Of a DNA stretch of 64,000 nucleotides, positions 8,388-39,803 are shown piece after piece; positions within the stretch are counted from its first letter, which is position 1, and the number at the start of each line of letters is the position of its first letter. The translations under genes were made by a program, and so were the position numbers. The notes beneath the pieces were generated by a model. The model did no database searches, was not told the origin of the DNA, and worked only from the letters and a program-made list of their open reading frames with translations. This stretch comes from Streptomyces triticirhizae (GTDB taxonomy: Bacteria > Actinomycetota > Actinomycetes > Streptomycetales > Streptomycetaceae): assembly GCF_003696235.1 (NCBI RefSeq), contig NZ_RFFJ01000001.1:62001-126000 (forward strand), in the 5' to 3' direction.

Positions 8388-8846
8388 ATGCGCACGACCA
8401 TCCGCACCTCGCCCGTTCCGTTCACCTTCCACATCCTGGCCACCACCGCGACCAACCACGTGCTGATGGTGCGGGGGAAGCGGGAGGGGATGGACGACGG
8501 CTGGGTGCTCCCGCACGGCACCGTCCCGCAGGGGCGCTGCGCCATCCTCGCCGCGCGGGAAGTCCTCAACGAGACGACGGGGCTCGACCGTTCGCTCTCC
8601 GAGGTGCTGGCCGTCACGCCGACCACCGACGACGACGGGGCGCTCACCGGCTTCTCCTATGTCCTGGACGGCGGGGTGATCCCGGAGCTGCCGTCCAACG
8701 ACCCGGCCGAGGGCGCGAGTTGGGTGCCGATGCGCGAGCTGCACGAGCCGCCGGCGCTCTACCAGTACGCGATCATCGCCGCCGGCCAACGCCGCCGCCT
8801 CCCCCTCCTCGTCAACGCCGACCGCCCCGACGCCGCGTTCATCTGA
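8388..8846 (+). CDS. NUDIX-like protein with a degenerate Nudix box
   Basis: A 152-residue protein with the layout of a NUDIX hydrolase: a first strand with MVRGKREGMDDGWVLPHG, then a box region GTVPQGRCAILAAREVLNET, and FSYVL / ASWVPMREL further on. The box departs from GX5EX7REUXEEXGU: the first Glu position is Arg, one catalytic Glu is Asn, and an extra residue precedes the final Gly. It may bind a nucleotide without hydrolysing it. It is the last gene of the HATPase-led group. Confidence 0.6.
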   Translation: MRTTIRTSPVPFTFHILATTATNHVLMVRGKREGMDDGWVLPHGTVPQGRCAILAAREVLNETTGLDRSLSEVLAVTPTTDDDGALTGFSYVLDGGVIPELPSNDPAEGASWVPMRELHEPPALYQYAIIAAGQRRRLPLLVNADRPDAAFI

Positions 8847-9147: not shown

Positions 9148-10557
9148 CTACGCGGCTGTGCCGTCGGCTCGGATTGGGGCGGGAAGGGTGCTCAGGCGTT
9201 CCGTCAGCTGGGTGGCCGAGTCGATCGTCGAGGTGTTGAGGAGGCGTCCGAGTCGGGCCAGGCGGGTTCGGGCGGTGGCCCGGAGGCGCTGTGGAGGGAT
9301 CAGGTCGAGCACGCCGAGGGCGCGGTTGGCTGCTTCTTCAGGGGTGTCGCGGGCCTCGGCGAGTGCGAGGACGAGGGTGGCGGCCACCCACGCCGGTGTC
9401 TCGGCGGGTGCGGCGGCGATGGATTCGCGGGCGACGTTGGCGGCGCGGTCGAAGCGTTCGAGGGTGAGGTGGGCTTCGGCGACGTGCAGGCGGTGCTCGG
9501 CTCGGTCGTAGCCGAAGCGTCCGGGGAGTTCCACGGCGGAGCGCATGATCTCGTCGCTTTCGCTGATGACGTCGTCTGCTTCCGATACCTGCTGTGTGGC
9601 CGCGAGCGTGGGCAGCAGCGCCCAGCCCAGGAGTTGGGCACGGCGCAGGCCCTCGGGGGCGTGTTGCAGGCCGTACCGTGCGTGGTTCTGGGCGTGGTCC
9701 CAGTCCCTGCGGGCGGTGGCGACCATGGCCAGTGCCCCGCTGGCCCACGCGGAGAGCGCGGGTTCGTGCGTGGATTCGCCGAGTGCGCCGGCCAGGGTGA
9801 GATGAGTTCTGGCTCCGGCGCGGTCGTCCAGGTGGTAGGCGAGGTTACCGAGAAGCGCCGACAGCCAGCCGACCTGCCGCCGAAGGCCTTCCGTTTCCCC
9901 GGGGTCCGCTCCGGCGACGGCCTTGGACAGAAGGTTCCGCGTTGCGCGGACCTCTTCGAGCAGGACGGCCGGTGGGTGCTTGCTGTAGTTGAGGGCGTAG
10001 TGCTCCACGGCCGCCTCGGCCAGAGCAACGAGGGCCGGGGAGTCGCCTGGGGCTTCCAGGACGGCCCACTGCACGGATTCGCGGATGGCGGGCAGTCCGC
10101 TGGCGGTCGTCATGGGTCCCCTTCGGCTGGTGGTCGTCTCCTCGCTCTGGTGCTGACGGTAGTGGAGAGGCTGCGGGGACGCGCAGGTGCTACACCACAA
10201 GCAGCGTGTCGCCAGCCCAAGTTGGTCGGGCCGGGCTCCGTACGCCCGGGAGATCATCAGCCGGTACTCGTCTCCGGGCGCCTCCTGCCCGTGCTCGTAC
10301 CGGCACAGCGCGGCCGGCGTCAGGCCCGGTGGCAGCAGGCCGTCGGATCGGTAGACGGCCGCCACCTCGCGCACCGCCTGCGGGCGCGACCACCCCAGCG
10401 CCAGACGCCACGCCTCCAGGGCCGTCAGCTCCGGCAGCGCCGTTCGGAGGCTGGTGACGATCCGTTCCTGGGGGTGCCCGTCGCGCTGGCACTGAGCACG
10501 GATACGGGATGCCTCCCGCTGAATCTCCGCGCGCCGACTTCGGGTGACTCTGCTCAT
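9148..10557 (-). CDS. XRE/TPR regulator, probable regulator of the 7-deazapurine-type operon
   Basis: A 469-residue protein. The N-terminal part holds a DNA-binding region (ALGWSRPQAVREVAAVYRSD, then PAALCRYEHGQEAPGDEYRL), a Cys pair (CLWCSTCASPQ) and a long helical TPR-like array typical of Streptomyces signal-responsive regulators (GARTHLTLAGALGEST; RAEHRLHVAEAHLTLERFDR). It is transcribed away from the queD operon across a 231-base divergent region, the usual position for a cluster-situated regulator. The start at ATG 10557 removes an upstream extension that reads like non-coding sequence. Its ligand is unknown. Confidence 0.75.
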   Translation of the reverse strand: MSRVTRSRRAEIQREASRIRAQCQRDGHPQERIVTSLRTALPELTALEAWRLALGWSRPQAVREVAAVYRSDGLLPPGLTPAALCRYEHGQEAPGDEYRLMISRAYGARPDQLGLATRCLWCSTCASPQPLHYRQHQSEETTTSRRGPMTTASGLPAIRESVQWAVLEAPGDSPALVALAEAAVEHYALNYSKHPPAVLLEEVRATRNLLSKAVAGADPGETEGLRRQVGWLSALLGNLAYHLDDRAGARTHLTLAGALGESTHEPALSAWASGALAMVATARRDWDHAQNHARYGLQHAPEGLRRAQLLGWALLPTLAATQQVSEADDVISESDEIMRSAVELPGRFGYDRAEHRLHVAEAHLTLERFDRAANVARESIAAAPAETPAWVAATLVLALAEARDTPEEAANRALGVLDLIPPQRLRATARTRLARLGRLLNTSTIDSATQLTERLSTLPAPIRADGTAA

Positions 10558-10788
10558 GGCCCGCCCCTTCGCCACAACCCCTGCCCGCCAGCGTCCCGGT
10601 GGACACCGGACGGACATTGCGCAGACCCATCAATGTTCCAACAAGACACCCGCAATGACGGCTGATCAGCTCCGCACGCATCGTGGGAGGGCAGTGTCAA
10701 CCGCCCGCTGAACCTTCCGCCAGCCCACCGGGCCGCTCTGGCCTTCGGCGGCCGGAGGCGCCTCGTCCGCAACACAAGAAGGAGCATC
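10558..10788. promoter_or_regulatory. Divergent promoter region of the cluster
   Basis: 231 bases between the regulator gene (minus) and queD (plus). The promoter of the 13-gene operon must lie here or in the upstream half, because later genes overlap or are only a few dozen bases apart. I see the AAGAAGGAG ribosome site of queD at its end, but no riboswitch-like structure that I can defend. Confidence 0.45.
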
Positions 10789-11199
10789 ATGGACTTACGT
10801 TCCATTCTGTTGCCGCCCGGGACCTTCACCATCGGCAAGAAGTTCGACTTCGAGGCCGGCCACCGGCTCGCCGGGCTGGCCCCCGGGCACAAGTGCGCCC
10901 GGCAGCACGGCCACAGCTACGAGGTCGAGGTCCTCCTGACCGCGCCCACCCTGGAGATCCCCGGGTTCGTCACGGACTTCGGCCTGCTCGGCCCGTTCAA
11001 GGAGTTCCTGGACACCGAGCTGGACCACCGCGACCTGCACGAGATCCTCCCCTTCGAGCCGACCTCGGAGCGCCTCGCCCAGTTCCTGGCCGGCTGGTTC
11101 ATCCAACACCTCCAGCCGAAGGTCCACGGCCGCCTGGTCGCCGTCAACGTCCGTGAGACGAGGAGCAGTTGGGCCCGCTTCGACGTGGAGGAGCGGTGA
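10789..11199 (+). CDS. queD: 6-carboxytetrahydropterin synthase QueD
   Basis: A 136-residue enzyme of the PTPS/QueD family, of normal length. It converts 7,8-dihydroneopterin triphosphate to 6-carboxy-5,6,7,8-tetrahydropterin, the second step towards 7-deazaguanines. The zinc ligands are H25 (FEAGHRL) and H40 and H42 (CARQHGH). The catalytic Cys is C36 in the CxxxHGH pattern that marks QueD-type members. VTDFG, LDHRDLHE, PTSERLAQF and VRET are the other family blocks. The start ATG follows AAGAAGGAG. It overlaps queE by 4 bases and opens the operon. Confidence 0.93.
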   Translation: MDLRSILLPPGTFTIGKKFDFEAGHRLAGLAPGHKCARQHGHSYEVEVLLTAPTLEIPGFVTDFGLLGPFKEFLDTELDHRDLHEILPFEPTSERLAQFLAGWFIQHLQPKVHGRLVAVNVRETRSSWARFDVEER

Positions 11200-11942
11200 C
11201 CACCTCCGAGCCGACCGACATCGACCCGGCGGCAGACGATGCGGCGTTCCGGCTGATCGTCGCGGAGTGCTTCGGCGTCGAGGCATCGACCTTCCAGGGC
11301 GAGGGCCCGAGCTGCGGGCACCCCGCCCTGTTCATCCGCCTGTCCCGGTGCAACCTCACCTGCGCCAGGTGCGACACCCAGTACACCTGGGACTGGTCCC
11401 GGTTCGACCCGCGCGAGGAGTCGGCGAGGCGGACGGTGGCTGGCCTCGTGGCCTGGGCCACGTCCTCCCTGGTGGAGTTGGTCGTGATCACCGGCGGGGA
11501 GCCGCTGCTCCAGCAGAAGCGTCTGGTGCCGCTCGTGCGGCAGCTGCTGGCTGCCGGGAAGCGGGTGGAGTTCGAGACGAACGGCACCCTCGCGCCGCTG
11601 CCCGGGCTGGTGGTTGACGGCGTCCACTTCAACGTCTCGCCCAAGATCGCCAGCTTTGGTGTGGACGAGGCCAAGAGCGTCGTGCCCGCCGCGCTGGAGG
11701 CGTTCGCGGCGTCCGGGCGGGCGGTGTTCAAGTTCGTCGCGTCCTCGGTGGCCGACCTCGACCGGATCGCCGAGCTGGCCGACGCGCACCGGTTGGCGCC
11801 GGTGTGGGTGATGCCCGAGGGCAACACCGTGGACGCGATCACCGCGACGACGCGGGCGCTCGCGGACGCGGTCGCGGCCCGGCACTGGCACTTCACCACC
11901 CGGCTGCACGTGCTTGCCTTCGCCGGCGCGCGGGGCCGCTGA
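11196..11942 (+). CDS. queE: 7-carboxy-7-deazaguanine synthase QueE
   Basis: A 248-residue radical SAM enzyme starting at GTG 11196, which overlaps the queD stop (GTGA) and has GGAGGAG upstream. It rearranges 6-carboxytetrahydropterin to 7-carboxy-7-deazaguanine (CDG). The FeS motif is CxxxCxxC at C52, C56 and C59 (SRCNLTCARCDTQYTWDW). FQGEGP near the N-terminus, TGGEPLLQ, ETNGT and the NVSPK substrate block all match QueE. With queD and folE it forms a complete CDG pathway. No queC gene follows. Confidence 0.93.
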   Translation: MTTSEPTDIDPAADDAAFRLIVAECFGVEASTFQGEGPSCGHPALFIRLSRCNLTCARCDTQYTWDWSRFDPREESARRTVAGLVAWATSSLVELVVITGGEPLLQQKRLVPLVRQLLAAGKRVEFETNGTLAPLPGLVVDGVHFNVSPKIASFGVDEAKSVVPAALEAFAASGRAVFKFVASSVADLDRIAELADAHRLAPVWVMPEGNTVDAITATTRALADAVAARHWHFTTRLHVLAFAGARGR

Positions 11943-11994
11943 TCTCCCGCCCCTGGCCCATCCGTTCCCCTCAACTCCCGGGAGGAAGAGGTCC

Positions 11995-12630
11995 ATGACG
12001 AGCTTCGCCACCGGCTCCACGCCTGAGCCGAGCCTCGCCCCGACGACCAATCGATCCATCGCCGCCATCGACACCGGTCGGGTCGCCGACCTGATCTCCC
12101 AGCTGCTGGTCGAGCTGGGCGAGGACCCCTCCCGCGAAGGGCTGCTCGGCACCCCTGACCGGGTCGCGGCCTGGTGGAGCACCTTCCTGTCCCCGGGTGG
12201 CGCCGCGCCGGCCGCCTGTTTCGCCGAGTCCCAGGTGAGCGACCAACTGGTCGTCGTCGGCGGCATGAGCGTGTGGTCGCTGTGCGAGCACCACCTGCTG
12301 CCCATGAACCTCCACGTGACCGCCGGCTACGTGCCGGAAGGCGAGGTGGTGGGTCTGTCGAAGTTCGGGCGGATCGCCCGGCACTTCGCCGGCCGGCTTC
12401 AGGTCCAGGAACGCTTCACCCGGCAGGTCGCAGAGCACCTGGCCGGCGTGATCGGACGCGAGGACGTCGCCGTCGCGGTACGCGGCACGCACCTGTGCAT
12501 GACCATGCGCGGCGTGCGGATGGAAGACGCCCGCACCACCACGGTGCACACCGGCGGCAGGTTCTGGAGCGACCCGGTGCTCAACCAGCAGTTCGTCACC
12601 CTCGCCGCTGCCCGGTGGAACGCGGCCTGA
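11995..12630 (+). CDS. folE: GTP cyclohydrolase I FolE
   Basis: A 211-residue type I GTP cyclohydrolase, slightly short at the N-terminus. It opens GTP to give dihydroneopterin triphosphate, the substrate of QueD. The zinc ligands are C97 and H100 (SLCEHHLLP) and C168 (HLCMTMRG); the catalytic histidines correspond to H99 and H166. GRIARHFAGRLQVQERFT is the conserved helix. The start ATG at 11995 follows GGGAGGAAGAGG. As a cluster-located copy it is likely dedicated to this pathway rather than to folate synthesis. Confidence 0.93.
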   Translation: MTSFATGSTPEPSLAPTTNRSIAAIDTGRVADLISQLLVELGEDPSREGLLGTPDRVAAWWSTFLSPGGAAPAACFAESQVSDQLVVVGGMSVWSLCEHHLLPMNLHVTAGYVPEGEVVGLSKFGRIARHFAGRLQVQERFTRQVAEHLAGVIGREDVAVAVRGTHLCMTMRGVRMEDARTTTVHTGGRFWSDPVLNQQFVTLAAARWNAA

Positions 12631-12670
12631 CTCTCAACTGGCAAGCAAAGCAAGGAGGCAGGGACAGCAG

Positions 12671-13201
12671 ATGGCCACGTCACGAACTCCGCGCGCGAGC
12701 AACGCTGACCGGCCTGCCCCCGTGTTTCTGACGTGGGAGGACATCGGCGCCGCCACCCAGACCATCGCGGATCAGGTGACGGCCGGCGGGGCGCCTGACG
12801 TGGTGGTGGGCATCGTACGCGGCGGCATGATCCCGGCCGCCTGGCTCGCCCACCGTCTCGGAATCCGCGACGTGCGCGCCATCGAGGTCACCCACACCAC
12901 CGGCGACGGCATCCACGCCGCCAAGACCCTGCTGCCAACCACCCGCAACCCCGCCTCGCTCGGCGACCTGACGGGCTTGGACGTGCTGCTCGTGGACGAC
13001 ATCGCCGGCAGCGGGGCGACGCTCGCCCACACGGCCAGCCTGCTCCGCGGCCTCGGCACCGCCCGCGTGCGCACCGCGGTCCTCACGGTGAACCGGGCCA
13101 ACTGGACGCAGGAGACCGAGCCCCACCACGCCATCGACCACATCGCGTCGCTGAACGACACCTGGATCGTTTTCCCCTGGGAGGGACAGCATGAGCGCTG
13201 A
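12671..13201 (+). CDS. Type I phosphoribosyltransferase
   Basis: A 176-residue type I phosphoribosyltransferase. The PRPP-binding loop is VLLVDDIAGSGATL at about residues 107-120, and the N-terminal VVVGIVRGGMIPA block is typical of xanthine/hypoxanthine-guanine PRTases. The known toyocamycin-type clusters of Streptomyces also contain a PRTase that puts a ribose phosphate on the 7-deazapurine base. By analogy this enzyme would turn CDG, or a derivative, into its ribotide. The gene ends 11 bases inside the next one. Confidence 0.85.
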   Translation: MATSRTPRASNADRPAPVFLTWEDIGAATQTIADQVTAGGAPDVVVGIVRGGMIPAAWLAHRLGIRDVRAIEVTHTTGDGIHAAKTLLPTTRNPASLGDLTGLDVLLVDDIAGSGATLAHTASLLRGLGTARVRTAVLTVNRANWTQETEPHHAIDHIASLNDTWIVFPWEGQHER

Positions 13202-14009
13202 ACTGGACGAGCAGTACCGCACCCGGCCGGGCACGCCGATGATCGGCCCGTACAGCACCAACCAGATGGACGACTTCTACGCCGCGCTCAACCTCGGTGA
13301 GGCGAAGCCGTCCGGACTGATGAACCTGATGCAGCACCTCATCGTCGCCGAGCGGTGCGCGGATGGCGCCAGTGTGCTCGATGTGTGCTGCGGCCGGGGG
13401 CTGGCCCTGCCGCTGCTGCACCGGTACGCGCCGAAGATCTCCCGCTACGTCGGTCTGGACATCAGCCCGGACAACCTCGCCGAGGCCCGCACGCGGCTGG
13501 CCGGCCTGCGCCGCGAGTACGGCAGCCCGTTCCCCGTCGACTTCGTCGAGTGCGACGTCGCCGGCCCGTGGCCGCAGCTGCCGCAGTTCGACGTCGCGTT
13601 GTACACCTCGGCTCTGGAGCACCTGCCGTACCAGCTCGGGGTGAGGAGCCTCGCCGCCGCCGGGGCGGCGCTCGCCCCCAACGGCGTGCTGTACCTCTCC
13701 ACGCCGCAGGCGTTCGGGCTCCCGCCCCGCCCGCTGCGGTATCGGGTCCACGTGTACGAGTGGTCGCGCGAGGAGGTCGTGAGCGCCGTCGAGACCGCCG
13801 GCCTGGTCGTGGACGACGTGATGGGGCTCCTGCCGCCCGAGCCGGACGAGGTGGCCGTCGAACTCGCCGAACGATACGGACCCGGCGCCGTCCACTGGTA
13901 CCGCGACCTGGCCGGCCGAGTGCCGAAGGCGCTGCTGGACACCGTGTCGTCCGTCGTCGTTCCCGACCGGGCGACCGAGCTGCTCTTCGTGTGCCGGAGG
14001 CCGGCATGA
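13191..14009 (+). CDS. Class I SAM-dependent methyltransferase (cluster)
   Basis: A 272-residue methyltransferase with motif I VLDVCCGRGLALPLL, acidic motif II YVGLDISPDN, and a later YTSALEHLPY with the LAPNGVLYLSTPQ strand. It overlaps the PRTase gene by 11 bases and the kinase gene by 4, so it is in the middle of the operon. A methyl donor step on the nucleoside or its side group is expected. The substrate cannot be told from the sequence. Confidence 0.82.
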   Translation: MSAELDEQYRTRPGTPMIGPYSTNQMDDFYAALNLGEAKPSGLMNLMQHLIVAERCADGASVLDVCCGRGLALPLLHRYAPKISRYVGLDISPDNLAEARTRLAGLRREYGSPFPVDFVECDVAGPWPQLPQFDVALYTSALEHLPYQLGVRSLAAAGAALAPNGVLYLSTPQAFGLPPRPLRYRVHVYEWSREEVVSAVETAGLVVDDVMGLLPPEPDEVAVELAERYGPGAVHWYRDLAGRVPKALLDTVSSVVVPDRATELLFVCRRPA

Positions 14010-14728
14010 GCGCCGGCACGATCCCCGGGCCCCGCCGCGCCGGGGAGGTTCCCGGCCGTCCGCTGTGGGTGAGCGTGGAGGGGATCAACGGGGTCGGGAA
14101 GACCACCGCCGTCCGTGCGGCGGCCGCCTCCCTCGGCTCGCGGTGCCTGCGGCTGGACGAGCTGACCGACCAGGCCGCCGACACCCTGCCAGGACAGGTG
14201 ATCGCCGCCCTCGCTGCGGGAGGGGACGTCTGCCTGCGGACCGGGCACCCGGTCGTGGAGACGCTGGCGCTGCTGGCGCTGAAGTTCCGTGAGTTCGAGC
14301 GCCTCACCCCCGAACTGCTGGACGGCGTTGACGTGATCCTTGAGGACCGAGGCGTGGACAGCGTGGCCGTGTGCCAGGGGGCGATCCTGCACGCCGAGCA
14401 CCGGGCCACCCCCGCCCTGGCCGTGGCGGAACAGATCCTGGCCACCGCTCGCCGGTGGCGGTCGATGCCGGACGCCACCCTCCTGCTGGCCGGCGACCGC
14501 GAGATCTGCACGACCCGGTTCACCGCCCGGATCGGCCGACCGCTCCCGGCGAGCGCCGTGGACGTGATCGAGCAGACCGACCGGCTCTATCGAGAACTGG
14601 CCGCTACCGAGCCCGACCGGTTCACCGTGATCGACGTGACCGGCCAAGGCCCGGCGGAGACCGGCGAGGCCGTCGAAGACGCCGTCCGCTCTCTCGTGAC
14701 CCAGCGGGAGGACAGCCGTGCCTCGTGA
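14006..14728 (+). CDS. Thymidylate-kinase-like P-loop kinase (first copy)
   Basis: A 240-residue protein with the TMPK fold. The Walker A is SVEGINGVGKTT at about residues 23-34 and the DR motif region reads ILEDRGVDSVAVCQG, close to the DRY..S..AYQG block of thymidylate kinases. It overlaps both neighbours (ATGA at its start; 11 bases with the radical SAM gene). Its presence with a second, divergent copy in the same operon suggests phosphorylation of an unusual nucleoside or nucleotide, not general dTMP supply. It may also protect against, or activate, the product; that is inference. Confidence 0.8.
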   Translation: MSAGTIPGPRRAGEVPGRPLWVSVEGINGVGKTTAVRAAAASLGSRCLRLDELTDQAADTLPGQVIAALAAGGDVCLRTGHPVVETLALLALKFREFERLTPELLDGVDVILEDRGVDSVAVCQGAILHAEHRATPALAVAEQILATARRWRSMPDATLLLAGDREICTTRFTARIGRPLPASAVDVIEQTDRLYRELAATEPDRFTVIDVTGQGPAETGEAVEDAVRSLVTQREDSRAS

Positions 14729-15752
14729 CATCACCCTGCTGTGGGCCGTGCGTTCGCCCTGCTCGTTTGGCTGCCCGCACTGCTACTTCGGGGAGTTGGA
14801 GGAGCACAAGGAGACGCTCCCCGAGGGGCCGGGTGTGCTGTCCCATATCCCGGTCCGCGACCTCGACCGTGCCGTCAGGAAGGAGTTCGCCCGGACCCTG
14901 GCCGGCTCGCCGGTCGAACGGGTCGTCCTCGCCGGCGGTGAGCCGCTGGACTGGCTGCCCACCCTCAGCCTGATCAAGACGATCAAGGACGCCGGGTGCG
15001 AGGTCGTCGTCGCGACGAACGGCGTGCCGCTCATCCGGCCCGGCATCGCCCGCCGGCTCGTCGAACTCGGCGTCGACGGTGTCTCGGTGTCCCTGGACAG
15101 CGCGGACGCGACCGTCAACGACCGGCTGCGGCCCTCCCGTTCCGGTCGGGTGGGCCACCGCGAAGTCCTGGCCGGCATCCGCACCCTGCTGAGAGAGCGG
15201 GGCTCCGAGCCGGGCCCCCGGGTCGGTGTCTACACCGTGGTCATGCGCGACCGCCCCCAGGAGATCACCGACGTCGCCCGGCTCGCCTCCGACATCGGCG
15301 TCGACTACTACGTCCCGCAGCCCATCTCCCTCCCGCCCGACCACAAGCTGTTCGCCGAGCGGTGCCACACCTCCGGGGACGTCCCCGCCGTCAAGGACCA
15401 ACTGCGCCGTCTCCAGGCGGAACCCCGAGGACTCTCCCTCCCCGACCCCGCCTACATGCGGCAGTTCCTCGTCTCGATCTCCACCCAGGGCAGCGGCCGG
15501 GTCGCGGACTGCTTCGGCGGGGCGCGCCTGTTCTTCATCCAGCCCGACGGCTCGCTATGGGACTGCCCTTCCGACCGTCGGATCGCCGCCACATCGGCCA
15601 GTGCGCGGCGCACCATCGTCGGCGGCGACGCGCGGACCCTGTTCGCCGACCGCCCCGCGTGCACGGACTGCTCCCACTTCTCCCGGGACTGCGTGAACAT
15701 GGGCCCGCTCGTGCTGGACATGCCCCGCCTCCTCGGAAGGGAGGCACCGTGA
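14718..15752 (+). CDS. Radical SAM protein with SPASM-like C-terminus
   Basis: A 344-residue radical SAM enzyme starting at GTG 14718. The cluster motif is CSFGCPHCYFG (CxxxCxxC, about residues 15-22), followed by AGGEPL and a TIM-barrel pattern. The C-terminal third adds Cys residues (VADCFGG, LWDCPSD, CTDCSHFSRDC) typical of SPASM/Twitch auxiliary FeS domains. Such enzymes modify peptides or small molecules by radical chemistry. Here it may install the amine or carbon fragment attached to the deazaguanine. It overlaps both neighbours. Confidence 0.82.
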   Translation: MPRDITLLWAVRSPCSFGCPHCYFGELEEHKETLPEGPGVLSHIPVRDLDRAVRKEFARTLAGSPVERVVLAGGEPLDWLPTLSLIKTIKDAGCEVVVATNGVPLIRPGIARRLVELGVDGVSVSLDSADATVNDRLRPSRSGRVGHREVLAGIRTLLRERGSEPGPRVGVYTVVMRDRPQEITDVARLASDIGVDYYVPQPISLPPDHKLFAERCHTSGDVPAVKDQLRRLQAEPRGLSLPDPAYMRQFLVSISTQGSGRVADCFGGARLFFIQPDGSLWDCPSDRRIAATSASARRTIVGGDARTLFADRPACTDCSHFSRDCVNMGPLVLDMPRLLGREAP

Positions 15753-16861
15753 CTGGCCTGCCACCGCTCCGCGCGACGGAGGAGCTGAGCCAGAGCACCC
15801 TGGCCGCGCTGGCCGGTATGCCCGACCCCGCCGGCGCCGAATGCACCACCAGGTTCGAGCACGACCTCACCGAGGCGTTCGCCAGCCGCCACGCGGTCTC
15901 GGTCTCCTCCGGCACGATGGCCCTGCACGCCGCGCTGTCCGCAATCGGCGTCGGGCCTGGCGACGAGGTCTTGGTCCCGGCGCTCACCGTCATCATGACG
16001 GCCGCACCGGTCGTTCAGCTCGGCGCGAGACCGGTTTTCGTCGACAGCGACCCCGCCACCCTTGACCTGGACTACGCCGACGCCGCCGCCAAGATCACGG
16101 CCCGCACCATGGCGATCGTCCCGGTGCACCTGTGGGGCAGGATGGGCGACCCGGCCGCCCTCCGCGCCTTCGCCGCCGCGAAAGGGCTCATCATCGTCGA
16201 GGACGCCGCCCAGGCCTTGGGAACCTCGCGTGCCGGCGTCAGAGCCGGAACGGTCGGCGCAACCGGGTGCTTCAGCATGAAGGACGGCAAGCTCCTCTGG
16301 AGTGGTGAGGGCGGCTTCGTCCTGACCGACGACTTCGCTCTCGCCGCCCACGTACGGGCCTTCCGCAGCCACTGGTTGACGCCGCCGCCCGGCAGCCTCC
16401 CTCAAGAACAGCTCGCGGTCAACGCACGCTTGGCCGAGCCGCTCGCCGCGCTCGCGCGGGCCAACTTACGCAAATTTTCTGCTCTGTTGGGGCGCCGCCG
16501 GGCCCAGACGGTTCACCTGCTCCGCGCCCTGCGGGAAGCTCGCGGACTCACGCCGCTGCGGCCAGCGACGGACGAGACGTGGAACCACTACGCCCCGCTC
16601 CTGCACATCGGCCTGCCGAATCCTCGGGCGTTCGCCGAGCACCTCGCTGAACGGGGCGTGCCCAACTCCACCGGCAGCTTCCGGTTGGTGCCGTGCGACA
16701 CCCGTCCCATGTTCACCAGCGCGGACCGGGCACCGTGCCGGGGCGCCGCCCAGATCCTGGACCACACCCTCGCGCTCATCATCACCGAACGCGACGACGA
16801 AGCGGTGCTCGACCGCTACGCCGCCATCATCGCCCGGGAGGCCGCCGCATGGCGCGCATGA
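15749..16861 (+). CDS. DegT/DnrJ/EryC1/StrS-type PLP aminotransferase
   Basis: A 370-residue PLP enzyme starting at GTG 15749 on the stop of the radical SAM gene. The phosphate-binding block is SVSSGTMALHAAL, the pyridine-stacking/Asp block is IVEDAAQALG, and the Schiff-base lysine is K181 within CFSMKDGKLLWSGEGG, aligned with the family pattern FSxxxxKxxxxGEGG. These enzymes usually aminate keto-sugars or cyclitols with glutamate. In this operon it may produce the amine for the ligase, or an amino sugar. Activity is plausible because all key residues are kept. Confidence 0.88.
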   Translation: MTGLPPLRATEELSQSTLAALAGMPDPAGAECTTRFEHDLTEAFASRHAVSVSSGTMALHAALSAIGVGPGDEVLVPALTVIMTAAPVVQLGARPVFVDSDPATLDLDYADAAAKITARTMAIVPVHLWGRMGDPAALRAFAAAKGLIIVEDAAQALGTSRAGVRAGTVGATGCFSMKDGKLLWSGEGGFVLTDDFALAAHVRAFRSHWLTPPPGSLPQEQLAVNARLAEPLAALARANLRKFSALLGRRRAQTVHLLRALREARGLTPLRPATDETWNHYAPLLHIGLPNPRAFAEHLAERGVPNSTGSFRLVPCDTRPMFTSADRAPCRGAAQILDHTLALIITERDDEAVLDRYAAIIAREAAAWRA

Positions 16862-17610
16862 CCTACTGCAGCCGCGGCCCGCTGATCTCCACCGAGGGCC
16901 TCAACGGAGTCGGCAAGACGTACCTGACGAACCGTGCCGTCGAAGCCCTCGCGGTCAAGCCGCTGATGCTGGACGAGTTCTCCCAGCGCGCGAACGGGCG
17001 CCTGGGCCTGGGCGAGGCCCTGCTCCGCGCGCTGCGCGAGGCCAGCGGCGGCGACCCGTTCCTGCGCGGCGGCACCCCGATGGCCGAGGCCCTGATCCTC
17101 ATGGCCATCAAGCGACACGACCTGGACACCGTCCTGACCGATCTGGCCCGTGGGCAGGTCGTAGTCGAGGGCCGCAGCGTGGACACCACCGCCGTGTGCC
17201 AGGCACTCCTGCTGCACCCCGACGACCCGGAAGCCGCCCTCCAGACGGCGATCGACCTGCTGGACCTCGCCTCGTCCTACCGACCGCTGCCTGACCTCAC
17301 GATCCTCGTCACCGACGACACCTCGAAGGCCGTGGAGCGCGCACAACGGCGTGACCGCCGTGAACTCACCAGCGAGCAGGTGGACTTCATGCGCGACGCG
17401 GGCGCCCTCTTCGAACAGCTCGCCGCCACCGACCCGGTCCGCTACCGCGTCGTGGACCGGCGGGTCGTCGACGAGTACGCGGCGGTCGAGCAGATCCGGA
17501 CGTGGATCAACGACGCCGGGAGCGACCTGGCCTGCCTGGTGGAGCCGTGGCAGCGCTCGGACGCGGTGTGCATGTGCTGCGGGCAGCTCACCCCGGTGGA
17601 AGCCTCATGA
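16849..17610 (+). CDS. Thymidylate-kinase-like P-loop kinase (second copy)
   Basis: A 253-residue paralogue of the protein encoded at 14006. The Walker A is STEGLNGVGKTYL and the later block is VVVEGRSVDTTAVCQALLL, where the Asp of the DR motif is replaced by Gly. An extra Cys pair (VCMCCGQL) sits at the C-terminus. I prefer ATG 16849 (GGGAGG seven bases upstream); ATG 16858 would give a 4-base overlap with the aminotransferase stop. Two TMPK-like genes in one operon could mean two phosphorylation steps or a heteromer. Confidence 0.8.
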   Translation: MARMTYCSRGPLISTEGLNGVGKTYLTNRAVEALAVKPLMLDEFSQRANGRLGLGEALLRALREASGGDPFLRGGTPMAEALILMAIKRHDLDTVLTDLARGQVVVEGRSVDTTAVCQALLLHPDDPEAALQTAIDLLDLASSYRPLPDLTILVTDDTSKAVERAQRRDRRELTSEQVDFMRDAGALFEQLAATDPVRYRVVDRRVVDEYAAVEQIRTWINDAGSDLACLVEPWQRSDAVCMCCGQLTPVEAS

Positions 17611-18272
17611 GCCAGGCCGGGAGCACCGCCGGGACCTGGGTGCCCACCATCGACGAGGGCGTCGAGGCCCTGATCCTCGACTTCGACGGAACCCTCGCCG
17701 ACACCAGGCGCGGCCACGAGGAATCCCTGAGAGCGGCCCTCGATCCGTACGGCGTCGACCTGGACCCCTCCTGGTACGCCCGGCACATCGGCTTGTCCAT
17801 CCACGACCTCCTGGCGAAGCTGCCCGGCGGCCAGGCGCTGCCCCGCGACGAGATCGTCCAACGCAGCCGCGCCCACCTGCTGGCAGCGGTCCACACGATC
17901 ACACCCGTCCCGTGCGTCGTCGAACTCCTGCGGCAGGCCCGACGCGCCGGGCTGCCCTGTGCCGTGGCGTCCGGCGCGAGCCGACTGCTCGTCAACCCGG
18001 GACTCCACGCCCTGGGCCTGCGCGACGCGTTCGTCGCCGTCGTTACGCGCGAAGACGTCACCCACGGCAAGCCGAACCCGGAACTGTTCCTCACGGCCGC
18101 CCGCCACCTGGGCGTCTCCCCGGGGCGATGCCTCGCGGTTGACGACGCCCCTGACGGCATCGCCTCCGCCCGCGCGGCAGGCACGCGGGTCATCACGGTG
18201 ATCGACGGTCACCTGGCCACCGCCCACGAAGAAGCGATGACGGCGCGCCGCCGTCGGCTTCGAGGAGCATGA
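17607..18272 (+). CDS. HAD-superfamily phosphatase
   Basis: A 221-residue HAD hydrolase of the beta-phosphoglucomutase/nucleotidase type. Motif I is LILDFDGTLADT with the nucleophile D25 and acid D27. Motif II is ASGASR, motif III Lys lies in THGKPNPELF, and motif IV is LAVDDAPDGI. It overlaps both neighbours by 4 bases. A HAD phosphatase also occurs in the toyocamycin-type clusters, where it is thought to release the nucleoside from the ribotide. The same role fits here. Confidence 0.87.
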   Translation: MSQAGSTAGTWVPTIDEGVEALILDFDGTLADTRRGHEESLRAALDPYGVDLDPSWYARHIGLSIHDLLAKLPGGQALPRDEIVQRSRAHLLAAVHTITPVPCVVELLRQARRAGLPCAVASGASRLLVNPGLHALGLRDAFVAVVTREDVTHGKPNPELFLTAARHLGVSPGRCLAVDDAPDGIASARAAGTRVITVIDGHLATAHEEAMTARRRRLRGA

Positions 18273-19237
18273 TGCCGGTCCTGAACTCGACCAAGAATCT
18301 GCACGTCGTCGAGCCGCCCACCGCCACGCGGGAAGGTATCGGCGTCTTCGAGTACACCGACCACTACACCGTCTTCCACTACGGCCGAATGCCGGACCCG
18401 ATCCCTGGTAAGGGCGAGGCGATCTGCCGGATGGCTGCCTTCAACTTCCTGATGTTGGAGGAGGCCGGCGTGCGGACGCACTTCCGCCGACACATCGCGC
18501 CGAACCAGATCGAGTTCACCCTCGCGCGCCTCCCGGACCCGGCCGACCGCCCCCACTCCCCGGCCTCCGGCAACTACCTCCTGCCTCTCCAGGTCCTCTT
18601 CCGAAACGAGCTTCCGCCCGGAAGCTCCGTCCACCGGCGGTTGGCCGCTGGCGAACTCGTCCCGGCCGACATCGGACTCGACGCGCTCCCGTCGGTCGGC
18701 CAGAAGCTGGCGCGACCGCTCATCGAGTACGCGACGACCCGGGAAGACACCAACCGGTTCCTCACCCCCGGCGAAGCCCAGTACCTCTCCGGCCTGGATG
18801 ACGAGCGGTTCCCCGCCCTGCGGGAGATCACCGTCAAGGTCGACGAGGTGCTGACCGGGCACGCGGCCGGGCTCGGGCTGAGCCACTGCGACGGCAAGGT
18901 CGAGTACCTGGTGACGGTCGAGCAGGAGCTGGTGCTCGGCGACAGTCCCGGCACACCGGACGAGAGCCGTCTGATGTTCGGCGGCGTGCACTGCGGCAAG
19001 CAGATCCTGCGGGACTGGTACGTGCGCTCCGGGCTCCAGATCCCCACCAGCGAGCTGATCGCCGAAGGCGTCCCCAGAAGCCGGTGGCCGAAGCCGGCCC
19101 CACTCCCACCAGAGTTCCTTCCGGTGATGACGGACCTGTACCGGTCCCTGAGCGAGACCTGGACGGGCGAGCGGCACTGGAACGCGCCGGACCTGCCGAC
19201 GGCAACCCACGCCGCCGCCCGCCTCATCAACCCGTGA
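18269..19237 (+). CDS. PurC-like (SAICAR synthetase fold) ATP-dependent amide ligase
   Basis: A 322-residue protein that matches the PurC family block by block: YTVFHYGRMPDPIPGKGEAI at residues 33-52, then CRMAAF and THF; PLQVLFRNELPPGSS at 106-120; ITVKVDEVL with GLSHCDGKVEY; and ESRLMFGGVHCGKQ followed by RDWY. True PurC joins aspartate to the carboxylate of CAIR using ATP. The protein differs from the usual streptomycete PurC and lies at the end of a CDG operon, so it more likely amidates the CDG carboxylate (as base or ribotide). No QueC is present, which this ligase could replace. Family assignment is strong; substrate is inference. Confidence 0.82.
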   Translation: MMPVLNSTKNLHVVEPPTATREGIGVFEYTDHYTVFHYGRMPDPIPGKGEAICRMAAFNFLMLEEAGVRTHFRRHIAPNQIEFTLARLPDPADRPHSPASGNYLLPLQVLFRNELPPGSSVHRRLAAGELVPADIGLDALPSVGQKLARPLIEYATTREDTNRFLTPGEAQYLSGLDDERFPALREITVKVDEVLTGHAAGLGLSHCDGKVEYLVTVEQELVLGDSPGTPDESRLMFGGVHCGKQILRDWYVRSGLQIPTSELIAEGVPRSRWPKPAPLPPEFLPVMTDLYRSLSETWTGERHWNAPDLPTATHAAARLINP

Positions 19238-19265
19238 CGGCGCAGCCAACCAGAAAGGTGACCGC

Positions 19266-19928
19266 ATGAGCAGCCTGACCGAGGACCCCGCCTTCCGGGC
19301 GACGACGTTCGTGGTGATCGACTTCGAGACGACGACCCCCACCGGCTATCCGGCCCAGCCCATCGAGGTCGCCGCGCTCGCCCTGCGCTGCGCGGACGGC
19401 ACATGGCAGGAGACCGGCCGCAGCGCGTCCCTGATCCGTCCACCCTCGTTCGCCCCGGTGACCCCGGCGGACACCGCCCAGACCGGCCTGACCGCCGAGC
19501 AGCTCCAGCAGGCGCCCACCCCGGACCGAGCGCTGGGAGCGCTGGACCGGCGGCTCACGGCCGGCACCCCGTACCTGCTGGTGGCCCAGCACGCGGCCAC
19601 CGAGGCCGGCATCATCCATCACCAGGCCGAGCACTGCCCGACGCTGGCCCGCACCGACTTCCTCGACACGATCCCCCTGGCCAAACACCTCATCCCGGGA
19701 CTCGCGAACTACAAACTCGACACCCTGCTCGCGCACTTCGGCATCCCACAACCCGCCGACCGGCACCGGGCCCCCGCCGATGTCGACGTCACCGCGAAGG
19801 TCTTCCTCCACCTCATCAGCGCCGCCGAGAACGACCCCCAACTCGTCGACCTCGCGGCGCTGGTGAGGACGGCGGGGCGCATGGCGAAGACCAACCGGCC
19901 CATCCAGGCGGGGCTGTTCGACGCCTGA
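19266..19928 (+). CDS. DnaQ-like DEDDh exonuclease-fold protein
   Basis: A 220-residue protein. Exo I is VVIDFETTTPTG (DxE), followed by EVAALAL; the Exo III region HRAPADVDVTAKV keeps the HxAxxD pattern of DEDDh enzymes. The middle Asp of Exo II is replaced by Glu in AQHAATEAGII, so activity may be reduced. A GAAAGG ribosome site precedes ATG 19266. Its place in a small-molecule operon is odd; similar proteins are found beside many Streptomyces clusters. It could act on nucleotides or DNA affected by the product. Confidence 0.75.
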   Translation: MSSLTEDPAFRATTFVVIDFETTTPTGYPAQPIEVAALALRCADGTWQETGRSASLIRPPSFAPVTPADTAQTGLTAEQLQQAPTPDRALGALDRRLTAGTPYLLVAQHAATEAGIIHHQAEHCPTLARTDFLDTIPLAKHLIPGLANYKLDTLLAHFGIPQPADRHRAPADVDVTAKVFLHLISAAENDPQLVDLAALVRTAGRMAKTNRPIQAGLFDA

Positions 19929-19985
19929 CCACCCCAACCACAAGGCATCCGTATGCCGATCCATGAAAGGACGGTGCCCGCTTCG

Positions 19986-20618
19986 ATGCCGAACGAAGAG
20001 CGGGAACGCACCGACGTGCCCCTCTGGTTCGACCCGCTGTGCCCGTGGGCATGGGTCACCTCGCGCTGGCTCCTGGAAGTCGAGAAAGTCCGGCCGGTGC
20101 GCGCGGACTGGCGGATCATGTCGCTGGCCTACCTCAACCTCGAACAGCGCAACGGTAAGGGGCTCAGCGACGACTACCGCGCGCTGATGGAGCAGGCATG
20201 GGGCCCGGTGCGCGTCTGCGCGGCCGCCACCGCGCACGCCGGCCGCGACGTTCTCGGCCCGCTGTACACCGCCATCGGCACCCGACTGCACCACCATCGA
20301 CGCCGAGACGACCCCACCGTGGTCACCCAGGCGCTCACCGAGACGCACCTGCCCGCCTCCCTGGCATCCGCCGCCACAAGCACGGAGTTCGACCAACGCA
20401 TCAAGGACTCGCACCACGAGGCGTTCGACGAGGTTGGCCTCGACGTCGGAACGCCCGTCCTACGCGTTGCCGGCACGGCTCTGTTCGGACCCGTACTCCG
20501 CCGGGCCCCTCGCGGCGAGGCCGCCGGACGACTCTGGGACGGCCTGGTCATGATCGCCGCGACGGACGGCTTCTACGAACTCAAGCGAAGCCGGGACGGC
20601 AAACCGTCCTTCTCATGA
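19986..20618 (+). CDS. Rv2466c-like mycothiol-dependent reductase (DsbA/thioredoxin fold)
   Basis: A 210-residue protein of the DsbA-like Rv2466c group: WFDPLCPWAWVTSRWLLEVE then MSLAYLNLEQRN. With the start at ATG 19986 the active-site Cys is C19 in CPWA, the same position as in Rv2466c, where the motif is CPWC; the second Cys is replaced by Ala here. An in-frame ATG at 19953 is possible but gives a longer N-terminus than usual. These enzymes use mycothiol, the actinobacterial thiol, for reduction. It is the last gene of the operon. Confidence 0.8.
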   Translation: MPNEERERTDVPLWFDPLCPWAWVTSRWLLEVEKVRPVRADWRIMSLAYLNLEQRNGKGLSDDYRALMEQAWGPVRVCAAATAHAGRDVLGPLYTAIGTRLHHHRRRDDPTVVTQALTETHLPASLASAATSTEFDQRIKDSHHEAFDEVGLDVGTPVLRVAGTALFGPVLRRAPRGEAAGRLWDGLVMIAATDGFYELKRSRDGKPSFS

Positions 20619-20662: not shown

Positions 20663-20743
20663 CCCTCACATCGGATACGACGTGAGGGCACGGCGGCGCC
20701 CACGACTACCTGTCCTGGTCAGCGGACCTTGGCGGGTCCGCTG
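20663..20743. terminator. Hairpins between convergent genes, likely bidirectional terminator
   Basis: Two inverted repeats lie between the end of the operon and the convergent NUDIX gene. The first is CCCTCAC / GTGAGGG (20663-20669 and 20682-20688). The second is stronger, CAGCGGACC / GGTCCGCTG (20720-20728 and 20735-20743, 6-base loop), and covers the 3' end of the NUDIX gene. No long T-run follows, as is common in high-GC actinomycetes. Confidence 0.55.
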
Positions 20744-21276
20744 ATCGCTCGTGTGATGCGGGGGCCGACGAGACGCTCGGCAAGCTCCAGCGGGTACCAG
20801 CCGGCACCGGTCACCTCGGACTCCTGGATGCGCCCGACATCCGCACGGGCCGTCGCGAAGGCGAACCCGATGTCCAAGTGGTGGTGCTCCGGCTCGTCCT
20901 TCGCTGGCCTCGCGGGCACCTGGCCGTACTCGACATAGGCGGGTGCCGACGAGACCACGGAGATCTGCCCTGGGTCGATACCGGTCTCTTCCGTCAGCTC
21001 GCGCATCGCCGCGTCGACCAGCGTGACGTCGGCCGGCTCAAGATGACCGCCGGGCTGCAGAGTGATCCCGTAGGCCAGGTGCTCGACGAGGAGGATCTCG
21101 GTGCTGTCGCGAACGAGGAGCGCGCCCACCGTCACGTGCATGGGGAAGCTGCGCCGGGAGGCGAAGCCCCGGCCCTCGGCCAGCAGCCGCAACGGCTCGG
21201 CCAGTTGCTCGGCCTCCTCCGGATAGCGCCCGAGATAGGCCGCAACGGCCTCCGAGATGTCGGAGTCACTGATCAT
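20719..21276 (-). CDS. NUDIX hydrolase
   Basis: A 185-residue NUDIX protein with an intact box region (GGHLEPADVTLVDAAMRELT then EETG) and the usual first strand HVTVGALLVRDSTEILLVEH. EHHHLDIGFAF and AGWYPLEL complete the fold. It probably hydrolyses a nucleoside diphosphate derivative. It runs towards the 7-deazapurine-type operon and may be a housekeeping nucleotide-pool cleaner or a self-protection enzyme for it. The start is ATG 21276; GTG 21279 is an alternative. Confidence 0.85.
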   Translation of the reverse strand: MISDSDISEAVAAYLGRYPEEAEQLAEPLRLLAEGRGFASRRSFPMHVTVGALLVRDSTEILLVEHLAYGITLQPGGHLEPADVTLVDAAMRELTEETGIDPGQISVVSSAPAYVEYGQVPARPAKDEPEHHHLDIGFAFATARADVGRIQESEVTGAGWYPLELAERLVGPRITRAISGPAKVR

Positions 21277-21549
21277 CACGAGCCACCTTCGCTCCGACCC
21301 GGGAGCCGAACCTCCGATAACCCATTGCTCGGATACGAGCGACAAGCACGTGCACGGGCAACTCCGCGAAAAGTCCATGGCGTACGGGGGGTTGGCACTC
21401 TACAAGTCAGAGCCGGGGCCACGCGGGTCAACGCGTCCCTCCTGCGGCGTGGCGGACACGTCGTTGTCGAGGCGACAGGCTCCTCGGAGCCCGGTTCCAT
21501 AAGGCCAGCCGCTCCTCGACGAGGGGGTGTCGTTGACCGGGCAGGCTTA
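21277..21549. other. Intergenic stretch upstream of the NUDIX gene
   Basis: 273 bases with mixed composition and no supported gene. The NUDIX promoter is expected here. Its right edge is the insertion-sequence relic that begins at 21550. Confidence 0.35.
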
Positions 21550-38745: not shown

Positions 38746-38886
38746 CGATGGCGAAGCTCCCCCTCGTCGCCTCCGCGAGGCTTTCAGCCTGCCTGGTGGG
38801 TGTGTTGGGAAACGTCGGTGGACAACTGCCGAGGCTGGTCGCATGATGCTGGTCTCGCACGACAGCAACGAGACCGGAGGGGCGCG

Positions 38887-39309
38887 GTGTTCAACCGACT
38901 CAGACGGCGGGTTACCCACCGCCCGCACGAGCAGGAGGCAGTACCCGGCCCCGCTGGTGCGCCGCCGGCGACCACCGAGCCCATCCCCTGCCCCGACACC
39001 GCCAAGGCCCTTGGCCGCGGCCGCGAGGTCACCCACTGGGTATGGGACTACCCCTTCGAACTGCCCCTGCAGCAGGGCATTTTGACCTGCGCGGCCTGTG
39101 GCGCGCGGCGTGACTGGCTGCTGCTTCTGCACCTTGCGACCGACGAGGTCTCCGTGCGGTGCCGCTGCACCCATCAGTGGGTCGAGCTACAGATCCCCGC
39201 CGACTGGTATCGCCGCCACACCGGGCGCATCTGCGGATACTTCACCGACGCCCACCACCGGGACAAGTCGCTCGGGTTCGACGGTACCTTCGCCGGTATC
39301 TACTGGTGA
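38887..39309 (+). CDS. Small protein with a zinc-ribbon-like Cys pattern
   Basis: A 140-residue protein from GTG 38887 with GGAGGGG five bases upstream. The core is LTCAACGARRDWLLLLHLAT followed by VRCRCTHQWVELQIPADWYR, that is two Cys pairs about 25 residues apart, as in a zinc ribbon. The C-terminus ends in GFDGTFAGIYW. No family that I can name. Confidence 0.6.
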   Translation: MFNRLRRRVTHRPHEQEAVPGPAGAPPATTEPIPCPDTAKALGRGREVTHWVWDYPFELPLQQGILTCAACGARRDWLLLLHLATDEVSVRCRCTHQWVELQIPADWYRRHTGRICGYFTDAHHRDKSLGFDGTFAGIYW

Positions 39310-39535
39310 CCCCGCCCTCCGGCACCGAGGCGAGCACCGACCCCCAACCGACGAGACGATCAACAGCAGGCGGATCGGGGACTACTGGGCGATCGGGCGC
39401 GGTGTACGAGGTGCTTCTCGACGACGGACGCGACGGTGCGCCTGCCGTAAGGCGAAGCGCGCGAGACAGCGCCTCTGGCACCCGGAGTTGAACAGCTGAA
39501 GGTGCGGGGCAGCGGCAACGCTGCGGACGTGTTCC

Positions 39536-39763: not shown

Positions 39764-39796
39764 ACGGGCTACGCGACCTTGTTCGCGTAGCCCGTT
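39763..39796. terminator. Perfect 14-bp hairpin between convergent genes
   Basis: AACGGGCTACGCGA at 39763-39776 pairs with 39783-39796, with a 6-base loop and TTGTTA following. It lies between the end of a plus-strand frame and the stop of the DUF317 gene on the minus strand, so it is well placed as a bidirectional terminator. Confidence 0.8.
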
Positions 39797-39803
39797 GACC
39801 TTG

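Follow-up and report, generated by a model that had tools for sequence, protein, structure and literature searches.

What does a bacterium make from 7-carboxy-7-deazaguanine (CDG) when the enzymes that produce it are encoded together with a PurC-like ligase and QueC is missing? The question is raised by an operon of Streptomyces triticirhizae that lies at positions 10789-20618 of a 64,000-nucleotide stretch of contig NZ_RFFJ01000001.1 (positions 62,001 to 126,000 of the forward strand, RefSeq assembly GCF_003696235.1), referred to here as the window. An initial annotation, made from the sequence letters, had read this operon as a pathway in which CDG becomes a ribotide whose carboxylate is amidated by the PurC-like enzyme. 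From the genomic distribution, phylogeny and active-site residues examined here, a QueC-free CDG pathway with PurC-type amidation is likely. Our leading interpretation of the whole, which we hold with somewhat less than even confidence, is that it represents a mobile cluster for a 7-deazaguanine aminonucleoside, probably an antimetabolite, built without QueC through the steps proposed below.

The operon consists of 13 genes on the same strand (Table 1), with a convergent Nudix gene after them and a divergent NsdA-like regulator before. All genes named in the initial annotation are present on the forward strand, and their families are supported by Pfam and NCBIfam, which agree on the cluster proteins; the QueD and QueE scores lie under the NCBIfam equivalog cut-offs. 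FolE, QueD and QueE are complete, with the zinc histidines, Cys, Asp-His and Glu of QueD, the CX3CX2C of QueE and the Cys/His/His/Cys of FolE all intact, as the annotation had stated. Equally intact are the phosphoribosyl pyrophosphate (PRPP) loop of the phosphoribosyltransferase (PRT), the lysine of the DegT-type aminotransferase (AT), the HAD aspartates and the cysteines of the radical SAM protein (rSAM). The genes are tightly packed, 8 of the 12 junctions being overlaps of 4-11 bases and the other four gaps of 24-52 bases. Pfam finds no nitrile hydratase, GMP reductase or UbiD among the 14 cluster proteins, and the described absence of QueC, nitrile hydratase, GMP reductase and transglycosylase from the operon is borne out, QueC and tRNA-guanine transglycosylase (TGT) being absent from the entire genome. 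Overlooked at first were two thymidylate-kinase-like genes, the nature of the last two genes (a DEDDh exonuclease, Exo, and an Rv2466c-like protein) and the convergent Nudix gene.

The same gene order was found, identical, in 20 loci including the window's own, a recurrence far beyond chance. The PurC-like protein was searched at E up to 0.001 in 296 genomes (the window's own and relatives), of which 21 match: four closely (71-100 % identity, the window's included), a sister in genome G028 at 52 %, and 16 weakly. Among 84,980 species genomes scanned, the hits were 11 actinomycete loci and a single archaeal PurC; a further seven clusters came from plasmid records. Merging duplicates left the 20 loci with the gene set and two relics (L027 and L097). 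Seven of the 20 clusters are on plasmids whose records are marked complete. Seventeen loci belong to Streptomyces, Kitasatospora, Streptacidiphilus, Kibdelosporangium, Nonomuraea, Frankia, Kineosporia, Actinomadura, Micromonospora and Streptosporangium, the other three being the window's own, L035 and L036; in the 19 loci other than the window, PurC is 59-90 % identical to the window's protein. A phage origin was considered and rejected, as 16 phage records (15 from Synechococcus phages and one other) match at only 23-28 % identity, none with more than 80 % coverage.

Gene content is largely constant across these loci. QueD, QueE, PRT, kinase 1, rSAM, AT, kinase 2 and PurC are each found in 20/20, FolE in 18 (missing in L033 and L036), HAD in 19 (missing in L088, with only a partial match in L099), Exo in 19, the Rv2466c-like protein in 19 (one short, with an internal stop) and Nudix in 18; the missing Exo and Rv2466c-like genes (L035) and the missing Nudix genes (L030, L035) coincide with contig ends. 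The predicted co-occurrence of this PurC-like clade with queD and queE in the absence of queC thus holds, within the stretches read, at every locus, with folE at 18. A class I methyltransferase (MT) stands between PRT and kinase 1 in 14 loci; in the remaining six an unrelated methyltransferase (MTb; MT against MTb, E 0.059) follows the Rv2466c-like gene, and no locus has both or neither. This mutual exclusivity suggests that methylation is probably a required step that was recruited twice. In a phylum-wide scan of 396 genomes, the rSAM profile at 1e-30 matches that of the window alone. With the PurC-like protein at 1e-12 there are 23 matching genomes, all but the window's own at 31-48 % identity in genomes related only at the phylum level, and the wider subfamily there is therefore ordinary PurC-like.

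The absence of QueC extends beyond the operon. The initial annotation had named a queC gene just outside as an outcome that would speak against its proposal. None was detected in the window's genome (6.56 Mb, 428 contigs, rated 100 % complete), nor by tblastn with two QueC proteins, that of the Kineosporia genome G305 and that of a sister cluster described below, in the 12-32 kb fetched for each of the 20 loci; at plasmid-borne loci this search covers the fetched stretches and not the genomes of the plasmid hosts. The QueC family PF06508 exceeds its cut-off in 10 of the 15 genomes that carry the PurC-like clade or its sister L037. Only in Kineosporia is the match full-length (5.5e-60), and it lies away from the cluster, on another contig; a hidden QueC was rejected on this ground. 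The remaining matches span 57-75 of 210 positions inside frames of 400-1083 amino acids and are assumed to be other ATP-pyrophosphatases.

The window's genome also has no PF01702 match, and thus lacks the TGT/DpdA-type transglycosylase of tRNA queuosine and dpd DNA modification. It does contain a second FolE (G000:C370), one separate housekeeping PurC and, above the family cut-off, one PurB. With neither QueC nor TGT, and with FolE and PurC to spare, CDG is therefore not destined for tRNA queuosine; a role in queuosine or DNA modification was ruled out by the lack of TGT.

The protein proposed to take the place of QueC has the fold of SAICAR synthetase. Its predicted model (predicted local distance difference test, pLDDT, 85.6) aligns with SAICAR synthetase over 228 residues at 2.1 A with a Z score of 26.2, and a structure search with this model placed 31 SAICAR-synthetase/PAICS entries at Z 18.4-26.2 and the one after them at 6.2; the fold assignment rests on this alignment together with PF01259 above its cut-off. 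For the phylogeny and residue table, PurC rows were extracted with a hidden Markov model built from a hand-trimmed alignment. Of 68 loci entered 66 were used, L083 and L084 being dropped because no PurC domain was extracted; L097 was excluded as a fragment and L027 was kept despite an N-terminus fused to a gpsA-like segment. The 21 cluster proteins, among them that of relic L027, group in a single clade (100/100), and the 21 rows of housekeeping-type PurC from actinomycetes in a separate one (100/100). Grouping with housekeeping PurC, the other outcome named as adverse, is therefore not observed. A further purC is present in 15 of 15 genomes searched, and the reading of the protein as housekeeping PurC is refuted by the separate copy in the window's genome and by the separate clades. 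On the outgroup side stand 20 PurC rows from actinobacteria related only at the phylum level.

The nearest relatives of the cluster clade are L037 (96/81) and then L082 and L093 (99/97); L034 and L082 were flagged as long branches. Each of these three relatives lies in a locus with a beta-RFAP (C-nucleoside) synthase-family gene above the TIGR00144 cut-off, accompanied by PurA in L037, PurB in L082 and PurH in L093. The L093 locus (13292-19171), on a plasmid of Mesorhizobium L-2-11 isolated from Lotus japonicus, places the beta-RFAP synthase-family, PurC and PurH genes near GMC oxidoreductase and HAD genes; a 42 % match also occurs on an Aminobacter plasmid (H21).

Residues that hold the substrates are retained. 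In human PAICS, Arg232, Lys228, Thr40 and Lys191 hold the carboxylates of aspartate (PMC9376930), and in E. coli PurC the substrate carboxyaminoimidazole ribotide (CAIR) is contacted by Arg94, Ser100, Asp175 and Arg199 (PMC3261824). Matched by motif and not by superposition, the equivalents of PAICS Lys191, Lys228 and Arg232 and of E. coli Arg94, Asp175 and Arg199 are kept in 66/66 rows, the ribotide- and aspartate-binding equivalents being R112, D208, K210, R234, K244 and R248. Phylogeny and residues together suggest PurC-type amidation with aspartate.

The source of the amine is the part of the initial annotation that finds no support. It had been derived from the aminotransferase or rSAM, and the comparison that argues otherwise comes from a sister cluster. 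Five Streptomyces plasmid records hold an rSAM with 48-49 % identity to the window's, and three of these clusters were read, from S. sp. NBC_00445, S. longwoodensis and S. liliifuscus (L089/L092, NZ_CP107915.1; L090, NZ_CP107737.1; L096, NZ_CP066832.1), with the upstream region in NBC_00445 and S. liliifuscus. In these two, QueD is 81-84 %, QueE 80-85 % and FolE within 74-85 % identical to the window's; the core continues with PRT (56-60 %), AT (48 %), HAD (44-46 %) and, at about 30 %, a kinase. For the sister cluster as a whole, rSAM and AT are each at 48-49 % and HAD at 44-47 %. The stretch read in S. longwoodensis begins downstream of the expected QueDE/FolE and agrees with the other two as far as it goes. 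Both sister copies tested retain the full set of eight rSAM cysteines. In the sister stretches PurC, MT, MTb and the Rv2466c-like protein had no match, and Exo has only a 26 % match in S. liliifuscus and S. longwoodensis. The sister clusters instead have genes of their own, including a QueC-like protein (PF06508, 59.2 bits), an adenylation-thiolation (A-T) nonribosomal peptide synthetase (NRPS) protein, a TIM barrel and a ribulose-phosphate-epimerase-like protein. No description of the sister cluster was found in the open-licence literature searched.

As the sister keeps the rSAM/AT core without PurC, the rSAM/AT step does not depend on PurC, and this is our main reason for treating the amine joined by PurC and the product of rSAM and aminotransferase as two different things. 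PurC on one side and the QueC-like/NRPS set on the other look like alternative treatments of the 7-carboxylate. We nevertheless weighed whether an amine made by AT and rSAM, such as an amino sugar, is coupled by the PurC-like enzyme to CDG or to the CDG ribotide, to give an echiguanine-like amide. DegT enzymes do make amino sugars, the best solved matches of AT being perosamine synthetases and then other sugar and cyclitol aminotransferases, and in 20/20 loci the adjacent rSAM and AT genes are followed by purC two to four genes on. This origin is nevertheless unlikely: the rSAM-AT-HAD module occurs in the sister cluster without a PurC match, the residues for the aspartate carboxylates are invariant in the clade (21/21) and fit an acidic amino acid better than a sugar amine, and the 14 cluster proteins include no nucleotidyltransferase or glycosyltransferase for a free sugar. 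The amine is more probably aspartate, and the rSAM/AT pair probably modifies the sugar.

The ATP and metal site, by contrast with the substrate-holding residues, has been rebuilt. In human PAICS, Glu97 and Asp137 bind metals and Lys131 is placed on ATP (PMC9376930). At the Glu97 position, Gln is found in all 21 cluster proteins and also in the three C-nucleoside-type copies, against Glu in the other 42 rows; the Lys131 equivalent is Thr or Met in all 21 cluster proteins and Lys in all 45 others; the Asp137 equivalent is Asn in all 21 and Asp in 24 non-housekeeping others, the column being unreliable in the 21 housekeeping rows through an alignment shift. Among the rows compared, Lys and Asp are lost only in the window's clade. 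Because this lysine and two metal-ligand acids are replaced, the analogy with CAIR drawn in the initial annotation is loose; the route itself, from CDG to ribotide to PurC-type amide without QueC, is supported by the tree, by the lack of queC in the stretches read and in the window's genome, and by the precedents of TubE and PrfC/PrfB. CAIR would be expected to chelate the metal through the ring nitrogen beside its carboxylate, where CDG has a carbon, and on these chemical grounds the loss of metal ligands would be explained.

The loss of three PAICS ATP/Mg2+ residues in 21/21 proteins nonetheless means that the clade may not be an ordinary ligase and may have altered activity or none. The protein could then be a binding or structural partner, or catalyse another reaction such as transfer from a pre-activated carboxylate, since all three substitutions fall in the ATP/metal site. 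We regard this as improbable: the equivalents of Glu193, Asp175, Lys191, Arg199, Lys228 and Arg232 are invariant in the 66 rows, the Glu97 change is shared with the C-nucleoside-type copies, and the model matches SAICAR synthetases over the whole fold. The clade looks able to hold both ribotide and aspartate with a rebuilt ATP/metal site.

The pathway we propose thus starts from what was established directly, namely gene content, conservation, phylogeny, the absence of QueC and the kept and changed active-site residues; from these we infer which substrates are used and in what order the steps run, that the amine is aspartate, where amination takes place and which proteins protect the host. FolE, QueD and QueE would yield CDG, as follows from their families, and PRT would join it to PRPP to form the CDG ribotide, a reaction known from TubE of the tubercidin pathway. 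The PurC-like ligase would then use ATP to activate the 7-carboxylate and join it to L-aspartate, or a close dicarboxylic amine, producing an N-succinyl-type 7-carboxamide ribotide. This intermediate could be cleaved by the housekeeping PurB or, as the cluster has no PurB, may stay an amino-acid amide. The thymidylate-kinase-like enzymes would raise the nucleotide to the di- or triphosphate, rSAM would oxidise a hydroxyl of the sugar, and the resulting ketone would be aminated by the DegT enzyme, following the logic of Pur10 and Pur4 in puromycin with a radical oxidant. One methyltransferase, MT or MTb, would methylate, and HAD and Nudix would remove phosphates. Exo, Nudix and the Rv2466c-like protein may shield the host from a chain-blocking nucleotide; a chain-blocking GTP mimic would explain the Exo and Nudix genes. 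The proposal in its complete form, a widespread, plasmid-mobile family of CDG aminonucleosides in which a PurC-derived ligase whose metal site has been rebuilt takes over from QueC and links the 7-carboxylate of the ribotide to aspartate, and an rSAM dehydrogenase and DegT aminate the ribose, is doubtful as a single package.

Several observations weigh against the proposal, beyond the altered ligase site. The rSAM has the CX3CX2C motif, C265-X17-C283 and C315-X2-C318-X6-C325, with C315 in 19/20 loci (Gly in one) and the other seven tested cysteines in 20/20, and we take the C-terminal spacing to resemble the auxiliary cluster of BtrN; this likeness and the adjoining aminotransferase are what suggest an alcohol-to-ketone role. 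Its best solved match is a remote one, cytosylglucuronate decarboxylase at 3.7e-6, and its predicted structure (pLDDT 58.7) is too poor to use. No PurB is found among the 14 cluster proteins, and the housekeeping PurB lies elsewhere in the genome. L082, one of the three C-nucleoside-type relatives, is a long branch, and its place is therefore unsure. FolE is absent from two loci and HAD from one, and the CDG genes and PRT are the least conserved (identity down to 34 % in QueD, 41 % in QueE and 35 % in PRT). The conserved gene set includes no exporter; MFS or ABC transporter genes flank several plasmid loci. The chemistry as a whole is proposed from sequence and models.

Two further explanations fit less well. 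The PurC-like protein could act on CAIR or on a pyrazole-type carboxylate made elsewhere, with the CDG genes forming a separate branch; its nearest tree relatives do sit in C-nucleoside-type loci, but beta-RFAP synthase, PurA and PurB are lacking among the 14 proteins and purC accompanies queD and queE in 20/20 loci, and we consider this very improbable. That the product marks or attacks nucleic acid, as a DNA or RNA modification or phage defence and not as a secreted metabolite, we hardly credit: the kinases, exonuclease and Nudix gene, the frequent location on plasmids, the core without an exporter and PADLOC matches that are both broad superfamily ones (rSAM to viperin models at 6.5e-15, Exo to CRISPR-associated DEDDh at 1.6e-21) would fit it, but the genome has no TGT, a polymerase, a transglycosylase and a restriction gene are all missing from the 14 proteins, rSAM carries additional C-terminal cysteines and is paired with an aminotransferase, and transporter genes lie beside several plasmid loci.

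Our preferred reading, the QueC-free CDG aminonucleoside cluster, can be set against known systems, and this comparison places the gene set among the 7-deazapurine nucleoside clusters, as a further variant and not as a new kind of system. FolE, QueD, QueE and a PRTase occur together in the tubercidin (tub) and toyocamycin/sangivamycin (toy) clusters, as QueD, QueE and PRT do here in all 20 loci and FolE in 18. The toy cluster has a nitrile hydratase. TubE is a demonstrated CDG phosphoribosyltransferase, and no QueC is present in the TubA-TubI portion of the gene table; tub has a UbiD-type decarboxylase and a GMP-reductase-type enzyme and toy has QueC (PMC6112128), none of which is found here; the present cluster instead has PurC, rSAM, the aminotransferase and the kinases. 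For pyrazofurin, PrfC and PrfB are described as working on a carboxylated C-ribotide, which they amidate with PurC/PurB chemistry (PMC8724604). Pyrazofurin and formycin thus offer the likeness of a PurC homologue recruited for a carboxylated nucleotide in an actinomycete nucleoside pathway. The window's clade is nested with the copies beside beta-RFAP synthase-family genes (99/97), PrfC and the formycin PurC not being among the tree rows; these pathways make C-nucleosides with PurB and other Pur enzymes, whereas here QueDE and a PRTase are present without PurB or a C-glycoside synthase.

Puromycin-type pathways use the ATP dehydrogenase Pur10, the aminotransferase Pur4, the Nudix enzyme Pur7 and the phosphatase Pur3, homologues of which are found in the cluster for the GTP mimic ADG (PMC11641026). 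Aminotransferase, Nudix, phosphatase and methyltransferase are present here as the same functional classes, compared by class and not by orthology. No Pur10-type NAD dehydrogenase is found among the 14 proteins, and the base is proposed to be CDG; rSAM may stand in the place of Pur10. The huimycin (hui) cluster shares FolE, QueD, QueE and a methyltransferase in an actinomycete, but has QueC (HuiB) and a glycosyltransferase, and its gene table is without PRTase, PurC or aminotransferase (PMC7439116).

Ribosylation of CDG without QueC has a precedent in tubercidin, and PurC-type amidation has one in pyrazofurin. Their combination was not found in the literature searched; nor was a description of this gene set found in the open-licence literature searched, and one may still be published elsewhere. 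Cadeguomycin is 7-carboxy-7-deazaguanosine. It is listed without a known cluster in a 2025 review (PMC12648386), and orphan chemistry of this kind therefore exists. If correct, our reading would add a further fate of CDG beside QueC nitrile formation and tubercidin decarboxylation. The base-tailoring step and the ligase specificity would both be new, rSAM would be a radical counterpart of Pur10, and the cluster would illustrate the recruitment and remodelling of ligases from the purine pathway for nucleoside antibiotics. The PurC and QueC-like sister clusters around a shared core offer a natural experiment in an operon of about 10 kb.

Table 1. Features of the window: the cluster, its flanking genes and the conjugation genes
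Feature	Position	Strand	Evidence
QueD, 6-carboxytetrahydropterin synthase	10789..11199	+	PF01242 3.3e-25; Zn-His, Cys36, Asp79-His80, Glu94 intact
QueE, CDG synthase (radical SAM)	11196..11942	+	NCBIfam QueE models best 2e-22, below cut-offs; CX3CX2C and QGE intact
FolE, dedicated GTP cyclohydrolase I	11995..12630	+	PF01227 4.8e-50
Phosphoribosyltransferase (PRT), proposed CDG phosphoribosyltransferase	12671..13201	+	PF00156 5.9e-18; PRPP loop DDIAGSG
Class I SAM methyltransferase (MT)	13191..14009	+	PF13489; swapped for unrelated MTb in 6/20 loci
Thymidylate-kinase-like nucleotide kinase 1	14006..14728	+	PF02223 4e-10; P-loop and DR kept
Radical SAM protein (rSAM), proposed sugar-alcohol dehydrogenase	14718..15752	+	PF04055 3.8e-17; CX3CX2C, C-terminal CX17C ... 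CX2CX6C
DegT/DnrJ/EryC1/StrS aminotransferase (AT)	15749..16861	+	PF01041 1e-72; pyridoxal phosphate (PLP) lysine K181, present 20/20
Thymidylate-kinase-like nucleotide kinase 2	16858..17610	+	PF02223 9.4e-9; 37 % identical to kinase 1
HAD-IA phosphatase	17607..18272	+	PF00702 8.9e-32; catalytic Asp pair
PurC-like (SAICAR-synthetase family) ligase, proposed CDG-ribotide amide ligase	18269..19237	+	PF01259 3.8e-19; model, tree, residues
DEDDh 3'-5' exonuclease (Exo), proposed self-protection	19266..19928	+	PF00929 5.9e-17; tested residues kept 19/19
Rv2466c-like (DsbA fold) protein, CPWA motif	19953..20618	+	PF22234 3.1e-82
Nudix hydrolase, convergent, conserved cluster end	20719..21378	-	PF00293 2.9e-16; 18/20 loci, always opposite strand
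NsdA-like TPR regulator, divergent, possible operon regulator	9148..10617	-	NF053720 74.3 bits, cut-off 75
Relaxase	35769-37742		PF03432
TrbL-like protein, weak	45701-46960		22.2 bits, under Pfam cut-off
SCO6880-family protein	46960-48441		under NCBIfam cut-off
VirB4-like protein, weak	48679-50445		under NCBIfam cut-off

The conjugation genes at 35769-50445 indicate that the operon here, and the window with it, is probably part of a plasmid or integrative element. A scan for promoters and terminators gave nothing exceeding shuffled sequences, and tRNA and Rfam searches of the window gave no matches. A small additional Nudix gene lies at 8388-8846, upstream of the NsdA-like regulator.

Individual loci show departures of their own. 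Tandem two-domain QueD fusions occur in L029 (1617-2465), L036 (a reverse-strand open reading frame of 291 amino acids) and L098 (an open reading frame of 237 amino acids from 8562). In L036 and L098 the Asp-His pair is confined to the first domain and a complete zinc/cysteine site to the second, so that the active site appears split between the domains. L036 also has a second Exo copy (10225-10878), which shares 56 % identity with the window's and separates the aminotransferase gene from that of kinase 2. In a relic of Streptomyces alanosinicus (L085 10049-11194, the same place as L027) the PurC-like gene forms an in-frame fusion with a gpsA-like segment that precedes it; the rest of the upstream gene set has no match there, but Exo, the Rv2466c-like gene and Nudix remain. 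The second relic, L097 (6001-7024, a plasmid of Nonomuraea sp. NBC_00507), is a PurC fragment beside an annotated exonuclease gene. In Frankia sp. AiPs1 (L031 11734-11850) the short Rv2466c-like match has a stop at the position of the CPWA cysteine, and that gene may therefore be dispensable.

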